A program made the translations under genes and the position numbers. DNA of 64,000 bases, taken from assembly GCA_024637045.1 (NCBI GenBank), contig JAGXFX010000001.1:1-64000 (forward strand), given 5' to 3'. How positions within the stretch are numbered: the first letter of the stretch is position 1; every line of letters begins with the position of its first letter. Shown here in pieces: positions 31,620 to 64,000 of this stretch. Under the pieces are notes generated by a model that saw only the letters and a program-made list of their open reading frames with translations, searched no databases and had not been told where the DNA came from. Source of the stretch: Soehngenia sp. (GTDB taxonomy: Bacteria; Bacillota; Clostridia; Tissierellales; Tissierellaceae).

Positions 31620-31695
31620 TGGTGGAGATAAGGGGATTCGAACCCCTGGCCTTCTGAATGCCATTCAGACGCGCTCCCAGCTGCGCCATACCCCC
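31620..31695 (-). tRNA. tRNA-Ala (anticodon GGC)
   Basis: Minus-strand GGGGGTATGGCGCAGCTGGGAGCGCGTCTGAATGGCATTCAGAAGGCCAGGGGTTCGAATCCCCTTATCTCCACCA: full cloverleaf, loop ATGGCAT, encoded CCA. Confidence 0.95.
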
Positions 31696-62129: not shown

Positions 62130-62744
62130 ATGGACCACAAGCTGATGGAGGATAACTTACAAAAAATAGAATCCGTAGTTTCAAGTAAGATTGTTTTCGG
62201 AAATGGCAACAACATTGATGAAATCCATCTTGTAGCAAATGGTCACAGAGGACCCAAGCAAATAGCCAGAGACGTTCAATCAATTTTACTTGCTACATAT
62301 GACATAGATGTTGATCACAAAAAGATAAGCATAGCCCAGATTCAAGACGATACGCTCAGGAGAAAAGCCAACAGAGTGAAGTTGGAAGGTGTACTTAGGG
62401 AGTCTCGTGATTCCAGAGCGATAATTAAGGTAGCAATCTCTCTTGATGGAGAGGAGTTTACAAGCTCAAGGACAGGAGTAAATTCTTCCAGAAACACAGA
62501 CAGAATGCTTGTGGAAACGACATTGGATGTGGTACAGGAAGCAAATGGATTTGAAGACATATTTTTATTTGACGATATAAGACAGGTTCCAGTTGCGGGA
62601 ACAAATATAATAGTAATTTGTGTAACTGGAGTTATCGCTGAAACAGAGCAGAGACTTTGCGGTGCAAGTGTTGTTGGCACTGATTATAACAAGGCAGTTG
62701 TCAAAGCTACACTTGATGCAGTAAACAGATTTATCACAAAATAG
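62130..62744 (+). CDS. Conserved-looking hypothetical protein, 204 aa
   Basis: Long ORF, MDHKLMEDNLQKIESVVSSKIVFGNGNNIDEIHLVANGHRGPKQIARDVQSILLA. Confidence 0.75.
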   Translation: MDHKLMEDNLQKIESVVSSKIVFGNGNNIDEIHLVANGHRGPKQIARDVQSILLATYDIDVDHKKISIAQIQDDTLRRKANRVKLEGVLRESRDSRAIIKVAISLDGEEFTSSRTGVNSSRNTDRMLVETTLDVVQEANGFEDIFLFDDIRQVPVAGTNIIVICVTGVIAETEQRLCGASVVGTDYNKAVVKATLDAVNRFITK

Positions 62745-62747
62745 TGA

Positions 62748-62950
62748 TAAATGCCGGCTGATCCAAACTTTTTTACTTAGCGAAGCGAATATAGCATGCC
62801 TCACTAGCGAATGGCATAGTACTCTAAAGGAGGCTATATTCGATGAAAAAAATCGCAAGCGTACTACTAAGCGTAATGGCAATGGCATTAGCAGCAGGCG
62901 CACATTATTCACTAATCTAGTAATTTCAAAGTAAACAAAGCCGGCATTTA
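62748..62950 (+). ncRNA. Candidate structured RNA/cis-regulatory element delimited by 12-nt inverted repeats
   Basis: TAAATGCCGGCT (62748-62759)/AGCCGGCATTTA (62939-62950); CGAATATAGC (62786-62795)/GCTATATTCG (62833-62842); ATGCC (62796-62800)/GGCAT (62813-62817). Confidence 0.55.
62843..62920 (+). CDS. Possible 25-aa hydrophobic peptide MKKIASVLLSVMAMALAAGAHYSLI
   Basis: AAAGGAGG SD 9 nt upstream; signal-peptide-like; may instead be fortuitous inside the structured element. Confidence 0.3.
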   Translation: MKKIASVLLSVMAMALAAGAHYSLI

Positions 62951-62978
62951 CAATATAAGTAGGGAAGGGGGCTTTGAA

Positions 62979-64000
62979 ATGCAGCTAAACAGAAAAACCA
63001 AGCTATATTTAGGATTTCTAGTTATAATAGCATTGCTATTGTACTCATATGTTTTTGTTAATTTTTCGATTAATAACATTTGGATGTTTCTGTTTTGGGC
63101 TATATTAGCAATTGTAGTAGAATCACTTTTGATTCCCATGCCTAATAATACAGTTGGAGTGTCTGTAGGGTATGCAGTGAATATATCTTCTATAATTGTT
63201 GGAGGACCATTATTAGCTACTACTGTAGTTGGATTGGGCTTCTTGCTTAGAGCACCTAAAATTGAAGGCAGAGGATATGTTCATGTTTTCAATTTACCTC
63301 CTCACAAATCTATTTTCAATGTTACTCAAAGTGTAATAGTAACTTCAATTATGAGTGTTACCTATGTCTATTCAGGAGGAAGCATTGGAAGTTTCAATTT
63401 TTTGTCGACAATAATAATAACTTTAATTGGGGTAGTTCTTAACACTTCAATAATATCAGGTTATCTTGCGTTGGTTAGTGATTCTAAATTTGTAGAAACT
63501 TGGATTTCAAATATTAAAGGGACATTACCAAGTTCAATAGCTGTTGGAGTAATTGGTATAATAATTGCACTGGCATATATCGGATACGGTTATGGAGCAG
63601 TTATCCTATTCTTTGGACCATTACTGCTTGCAAGATATTCATTTAAACTATACATAGAAATGAGAAATCTTTACCTTTCAACTATTCAGGCACTTAACAA
63701 GACCGTTGAAGCCAAGGATCCATATACAAGTGGACATGCAAACAGAGTTGAAAAATTTGCCGTTGATCTAGCCAAAGCTTATCATCTGCCATTTGAAGGT
63801 ATACAGAATCTAAAGACCGCATCAATACTTCATGATATAGGTAAAATTGGAATTCATGACGAAATATTGAACAAGGCATCACGACTTACTCAAGAAGAGT
63901 TCCAGGAAATCATGAGACATCCTTCAATAGGTGCAGAAATAATCAGCAAGGTTGACTTCTTAAATGATATTACAACTATTGTTAAGCATCACCATGAAAG
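62979..64000 (+). CDS. HD-GYP domain protein with N-terminal membrane sensor (runs off window end)
   Basis: ATG at 62979 after AGGGGGC; ~8 TM then NKTVEAKDPYTSGHANRVEKFAVDLAKAY...ILHDIGKIGIHDEILNK...EIMRHPSIGAEII...VKHHHE. Not in the ORF track because it has no stop in the window. Confidence 0.92.
   Translation, partial: MQLNRKTKLYLGFLVIIALLLYSYVFVNFSINNIWMFLFWAILAIVVESLLIPMPNNTVGVSVGYAVNISSIIVGGPLLATTVVGLGFLLRAPKIEGRGYVHVFNLPPHKSIFNVTQSVIVTSIMSVTYVYSGGSIGSFNFLSTIIITLIGVVLNTSIISGYLALVSDSKFVETWISNIKGTLPSSIAVGVIGIIIALAYIGYGYGAVILFFGPLLLARYSFKLYIEMRNLYLSTIQALNKTVEAKDPYTSGHANRVEKFAVDLAKAYHLPFEGIQNLKTASILHDIGKIGIHDEILNKASRLTQEEFQEIMRHPSIGAEIISKVDFLNDITTIVKHHHE

Follow-up and report, generated by a model that had tools for sequence, protein, structure and literature searches.

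RNAIII, with its delta-haemolysin gene, is a dual-function RNA in which the ORF of a short hydrophobic peptide lies inside a structured RNA. In the odc1 motif of Alphaproteobacteria (uORF-25-1), the right shoulder of helix P1 holds the ribosome-binding site (RBS) of a conserved 11-aa peptide ORF (PMC8632094), and ModT, the raiA RNA of C. difficile, affects c-di-GMP levels and is linked to sporulation (PMC11706538). The locus described here, within a 64,000-nt stretch of Soehngenia sp. DNA (the window), likewise joins a structured RNA to a short reading frame, and does so between a gene that we call up204 and the gene for a membrane HD-GYP phosphodiesterase (Table 1). That this structure, its ORF and the surrounding cassette are real is near certain.

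Table 1. Coordinates of the element and of its flanking genes in the window
Feature	Position	Strand	Remarks
Upstream gene up204	62130..62744	+	204-aa ORF
Closing stem, 5' arm TAAATGCCGGCT	62748-62759	+	perfect complement of 3' arm; covariation
First conserved box AGCGAAGCG	62779..62787	+	AGCGnAGC invariant in 58 core sequences
P1, 5' arm CGAATATAGC	62786-62795	+	pairs with GCTATATTCG
P2, 5' arm ATGCC	62796-62800	+	pairs with GGCAT; covariation
Second conserved box TAGCGAA, inside P2 loop	62805..62811	+	AGCG invariant in 58 sequences
P2, 3' arm GGCAT	62813-62817	+	pairs with ATGCC; covariation
Shine-Dalgarno AGGAGG of micropeptide	62828-62833	+	sequence
P1, 3' arm GCTATATTCG	62833-62842	+	covers last G of Shine-Dalgarno and spacer to start codon
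Micropeptide ORF MKKIASVLLSVMAMALAAGAHYSLI	62843-62920	+	25 codons, wholly within element
Closing stem, 3' arm AGCCGGCATTTA	62939-62950	+	perfect complement of 5' arm; covariation
Membrane HD-GYP phosphodiesterase gene	62979..64000	+	runs off window; 413 aa in genome

The first-pass annotation of this DNA had pointed to a perfect 12-nt inverted repeat that starts 3 nt past a stop codon and closes over 203 nt, to a perfect 10-nt inverted repeat bordering a Shine-Dalgarno (SD) sequence, and to an inner ATGCC/GGCAT hairpin, and all three are present. The stop codon is the TAG of up204 (62742-62744), and the 203-nt unit spanned by the closing arms ends 28 nt 5' of the HD-GYP start codon. P2, the ATGCC/GGCAT hairpin, stacks on P1, which itself ends directly 5' of the ATG at 62843. 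What had been overlooked was the 25-codon ORF opened by this ATG beside the SD. The proposed structured RNA of about 200 nt before the HD-GYP gene stands with respect to its conserved and covarying stems and fails as a purely non-coding element, there being a micropeptide gene inside it. The element occurs as a single copy in the genome.

The fold predicted from the single sequence contains all three helices (-57.2 kcal/mol, z -1.68), with 15 of 200 shuffled sequences folding as well. Because this energy is unexceptional, one sequence alone proves nothing, and folding energy was not counted as evidence. The check that had been named beforehand, namely conservation and covariation of the stems in relatives, was far more informative. 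Across 19 close relatives, 95% of the cells in the three helices are paired and 13 of the 25 base pairs show double, compensatory changes; the covariation score is 0.259 as compared with 0.113 in shuffles, none of 500 shuffles reaches it, and sliding the helix partners against each other abolishes the signal. Pairing is equally well kept in the set of 58 core sequences (96% of cells).

With respect to the closing stem, the sequences found at 111 loci are diverse and unrelated (for example GCCGGC, AAAGCCAAAACATCAT, AATCAGGTTTGCAG, AGGGCCGAC and CAAACCGC), yet the two arms still fit each other, with a mean score of 31.7 for arms paired with their own partner versus 18.5 when partners are swapped between species. 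For P1 the corresponding scores are 22.1 and 17.9, a smaller gap that reflects the fixed sequence of P1 near the lineage of the window. In the divergent lineages represented by L161, L168 and L172, P1 has been rewritten (GTTTGCC/GGCAAAC in L161 and GAACAACC/GGTTGTTC in L168) with pairing retained right up to the start codon. At least two AGCG boxes precede the micropeptide in all 112 loci that carry it, where 6.9 would be expected in shuffled sequence, and in L007-L009 a third, AGCGAAG-like box lies between the closing arm and the core. Partition function calculations indicate that the region 5' of the micropeptide start is less accessible than that 5' of the HD-GYP start in 96 of 111 loci, the mean unpaired probability being 0.27 for the micropeptide RBS and 0.46 for the HD-GYP RBS. 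A conserved and covarying helix covers the edge of the SD and the spacer, as is found in cis-regulatory RNAs that mask an RBS, and masking of the micropeptide RBS is predicted. The closing stem, for its part, resembles an intrinsic terminator in part of the species, as judged from a U content of 0.58 past its last G-C pair (versus 0.33), although many lack a U-run and a run of at least four U was seen in 30 of 83 cases. In the window itself the U-run is weak, and a terminator scan with a loop limit of 8 nt flagged none at the closing stem.

The 112 micropeptides, mostly of 25-29 aa, share a common design in which a basic N-terminus is followed by a hydrophobic middle, a near-invariant Gly-Ala motif (Gly in 111 and Ala in 109 of 112) and a short tail that contains Trp in 71 cases. 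Between related pairs, differences per codon position amount to 0.223, 0.086 and 0.345, with the third position most variable. This is the pattern of selected coding sequence, which argues that the micropeptide is under selection at the protein level. These peptides stay below the cut-off of every Pfam and NCBIfam family. Assignment to Phr precursors was rejected on a sub-cut-off match to Phr_nterm (17.6 vs 25 bits), and assignment to AgrD-type precursors was rejected since the characteristic cysteine is missing, Cys being found in 3 of the 112 peptides.

The HD-GYP gene product is matched by Pfam HD_5 (1.2e-15) and carries the catalytic signature HD..HDxGK..HHE..GYP, with H285, D286, G288, K289, H338, H339, G346, Y347 and P348 invariant in 50 sequences and a structural match to 4mcw (E 3.7e-11). 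Its N-terminal domain has six transmembrane segments and is similar to the S-components of ECF transporters (BioY, RibU, FolT), at E 0.03 and weaker with a target TM-score of about 0.6. With a profile of this domain, matches were obtained in 44 of 371 class genomes, which almost coincide with those that have up204. The AF2 model of up204 (pLDDT 91) consists of an N-terminal alpha/beta domain and a C-terminal half built from tandem beta-beta-beta-alpha units of the LeuA-regulatory or dsRBD-like type. The window's copy has no Pfam or NCBIfam match, a search of PDB sequences with the up204 profile gave none either, and LeuA_dimer was matched weakly in 9 of 55 relatives. Foldseek returned the LeuA regulatory domain as best match (E 1.2e-4) and tandem dsRBDs next, all with low TM-scores of 0.2-0.4, and on the model the likeness of up204 to LeuA regulatory domains is as great as that to RNA-binding dsRBDs. 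Among neighbouring genes, a RaiA/HPF gene was seen upstream of up204 at 28 loci, and a gene for a DUF5317 membrane protein lies just 3' of the HD-GYP gene at 25 loci (for example L086 and L095) and is a candidate for inclusion in the cassette. Riboswitches of the c-di-GMP-I class were observed near the HD-GYP cassette in two cases (L086:2060-2145 and L213:3373-3459).

A BLAST search with the region (E<=0.001) gave one match per genome in 22 of 60 relatives; one of these, a short match in L026, was discarded as not being an element. Searches with a DNA core pattern and with R2, a covariance model built from the 58 cores, revealed the element to be widespread in Clostridia, with carriers that include Caloranaerobacter azorensis, Geosporobacter subterraneus, Anaerosolibacter carboniphilus and Caproiciproducens faecalis. 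Out of 391 class genomes, R2 matched 41, always with a single copy, and the up204 profile (A2) gave strong matches in 46, including all 41 that were positive with R2; the remaining five (L192, L196-L198 and L265) proved on inspection to have a diverged element. In the phylum sample, up204 was found in 161 of 399 genomes (40%), and nearly all loci that were read have the element. Some loci reached by more than one search share genomes. Counting distinct sequences only, among which related species are not independent, there are 119 up204 loci, and a micropeptide is present in 112 of these, or all Clostridia-type loci with enough sequence. Of the other seven, six are on contigs that end less than 190 nt past the up204 stop, and one is L212, where up204 occurs as a tandem pair and the element follows the second copy only. 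The HD-GYP gene lies downstream in 111 of the 112 micropeptide loci, the contig ending first in the other. Full or variant cassettes are also present in other classes of Bacillota, in Bacilli, in Actinomycetota and in the Chloroflexota sample (3 of 121 genomes, with peptides such as MKWRMAYLKVMYALLVVATLVLAAGADLKWH). Across the loci compared, the order up204, RNA/micropeptide, membrane HD-GYP is fixed.

Natural variants provide a view of how the parts of the cassette depend on one another. In L261, an HD-GYP locus without up204, the AGCG core is absent whereas the closing stem and the micropeptide (MKKIAAVLASILALVLAGGANLTWW) are kept. L262-L264 hold weaker HD-GYP paralogues, also without up204 and core, in which a related micropeptide is followed by an ordinary terminator. 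Among 20 up204 loci examined in Actinomycetota, the six with HD-GYP carry the closing stem and the micropeptide, and the other 14 (L247-L260) lack a micropeptide as well as any HD-GYP gene in the roughly 1.6 kb downstream; judging by the latter, the role of up204 extends beyond the cassette. Within these groups, then, the peptide goes with HD-GYP and the RNA core with up204. The situation in Bacilli is different. There, the cassette was found in 6 of 121 genomes, and all six loci (L232-L234 and L241-L243), which were read individually, retain up204, closing stem and HD-GYP; the closing stem is TTGCATAGCATAAC, and the peptide within it is cationic rather than hydrophobic, with a tail of the GD..W type (e.g. 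MLKMIKKIMKSNKNANVSYGDILAWG). AGCG boxes were not evident in most of these loci and the core was not recognised by R2, so that neither the simple reading as a transmembrane subunit nor the link between core and up204 is universal. It is their position that identifies the Bacilli loci, which are best treated as a divergent variant.

Taken together, these observations are most consistent with an RNA that acts in cis, harbouring a micropeptide gene and gating it, within a dedicated c-di-GMP cassette, a mechanism to which we give about an even chance of being correct. The element probably controls a c-di-GMP signal, since a conserved RNA structure stands beside one membrane enzyme that degrades c-di-GMP. 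In the proposed scheme, P1 and P2 with their AGCG boxes would form a translational on/off switch for the micropeptide, and up204, acting by RNA binding or ligand sensing, would be the most likely binder of P1/P2, because none of the four HD-GYP loci without up204 that were examined has the RNA core. This inferred link between core and up204 stands on those four loci, three of which are related paralogues. The micropeptide, in turn, may act on the membrane domain of the HD-GYP protein, either as a small membrane subunit or as an exported or interfacial peptide with its W-containing tail, a partnership suggested by the fact that the peptide stays with the HD-GYP gene when up204 and core are gone. 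The closing stem would separate the micropeptide message from both neighbouring genes, and as it is terminator-like in many species it may in addition hold down read-through towards HD-GYP. In a more specific and tentative version, up204 would read the RNA switch that sets the dose of the cis-encoded micropeptide, and this peptide would be dedicated, as ligand or subunit, to the membrane c-di-GMP phosphodiesterase, whose sensor domain is of the vitamin-transporter type; we give this version clearly less than an even chance of being right.

Several features of the core would also suit a riboswitch, in which P1, P2 and the AGCG boxes bind a small molecule to control micropeptide translation and up204 acts elsewhere in the pathway. 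The core is compact, its loop nucleotides are invariant, P1 is predicted to mask the RBS, and the likeness of the downstream sensor domain to vitamin-binding S-components makes a small ligand plausible. We nevertheless consider a riboswitch rather unlikely, as the core is confined to one locus, with one copy per genome and never before a second type of gene, and as it disappears together with up204 in the four loci described above, where a self-sufficient aptamer would not need that protein. The 3' arm of the closing stem, which begins a median of 13 nt past the micropeptide stop codon and often has U next to it, raises the alternative of a leader-peptide attenuator, in which ribosomes translating the ORF, perhaps stalled at its conserved C-terminus, determine if a closing-stem terminator arises ahead of HD-GYP. 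Such a role would fit the paralogues, where an ordinary terminator separates the peptide from HD-GYP, and a chain of 24-29 aa would remain inside the ribosome exit tunnel. Selection on the N-terminal KK and the hydrophobic segment of the micropeptide speaks against it, as do the wide range of stop-to-arm distances (0-84 nt) and the lack of a U-run in many species, and attenuation is on balance unlikely.

The fact that the closing stem joins both ends, as in several large bacterial ncRNAs, and the narrow span of the element (median 209 nt) could instead reflect an independent RNA of about 200 nt, a dual-function mRNA/sRNA that is set free at the closing stem, through processing or termination, to act in trans. 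We regard this as quite improbable, given that no promoter of its own stands out for the element in the window, that the conserved core is built around the micropeptide RBS, and that its strict association with HD-GYP speaks for a role in cis. Perfect terminal inverted repeats are likewise a property of mobile or palindromic DNA, whether a MITE or an inverted repeat for integration or protein binding. The arms, however, differ between species while remaining complementary, a coding gene lies inside, and the single genomic copy together with synteny that is fixed across phyla refutes a mobile element or MITE, leaving this explanation with a negligible probability. A type I toxin-antitoxin system, considered as a mobile or multi-copy module, was rejected in view of the single copy and the fixed synteny beside one host gene.

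In terms of novelty, the element is apparently undescribed and has no entry in Rfam, Pfam or NCBIfam. The first-pass annotation could not assign it to a known family, and a search with Rfam 15 agrees, giving no match at the element in the window, either at the gathering threshold or at E<=10, and none at the element in 36 homologous loci; a match to snoR113 was far below its cut-off and was discarded. The sole match in the window at the gathering threshold is a tRNA gene (31623-31695, minus strand). The texts of three large ncRNA surveys and of the ModT paper do not describe the element, and no description of it came from the literature searched on HD-GYP in combination with RNA motifs, with micropeptides, with DUF5317 or with sensors of the S-component type; a supplementary list may still mention it. 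If the proposed function is correct, this would be a widespread and previously unrecognised signalling cassette, the element being carried by about a tenth of the sampled class genomes. The membrane HD-GYP enzyme would gain a candidate partner in the micropeptide, and the RNA class would have a candidate ligand, protein or small molecule, that can be tested; the natural variants in which RNA core, peptide and HD-GYP occur apart from one another lead to directly testable predictions.

With respect to known systems, the HD-GYP protein of the cassette has the same C-terminal domain fold and catalytic residues as the phosphodiesterases 4mcw and PA4781, and differs from these in its N-terminal domain of the six-helix S-component type and in having its own RNA and micropeptide. 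The micropeptide resembles Phr and AgrD precursors in being short, with a basic N-terminus, a membrane-directed segment and a short variable tail. As compared with RNAIII, the element is fixed in cis before HD-GYP, and action in trans is not evident. The likeness to raiA RNA or ModT (RF03072) lies in a length of about 200 nt, a single closing stem and occurrence in Clostridia; the element is nonetheless separate from it and encodes a peptide, and the resemblance suggested at first pass was not borne out by the raiA model, which has no match at E<=10 in 62600-63100. With scores of 169-183 bits, the same Rfam library does find raiA RNAs outside the element in L086, L192 and L196. These lie about 1-3.5 kb upstream of it (L086:1608-1852, L192:3027-3230 and L196:444-644), and it may not be by chance that the two RNAs are neighbours. 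In design, the closest counterpart is the odc1 motif, where the RBS is likewise embedded in P1 and both RNA and peptide are conserved. The two are unrelated in sequence, taxon and target genes, and unlike odc1, the element described here has an additional long-range closing stem, a longer peptide of 24-29 aa, an HD-GYP gene downstream and up204 as a partner.
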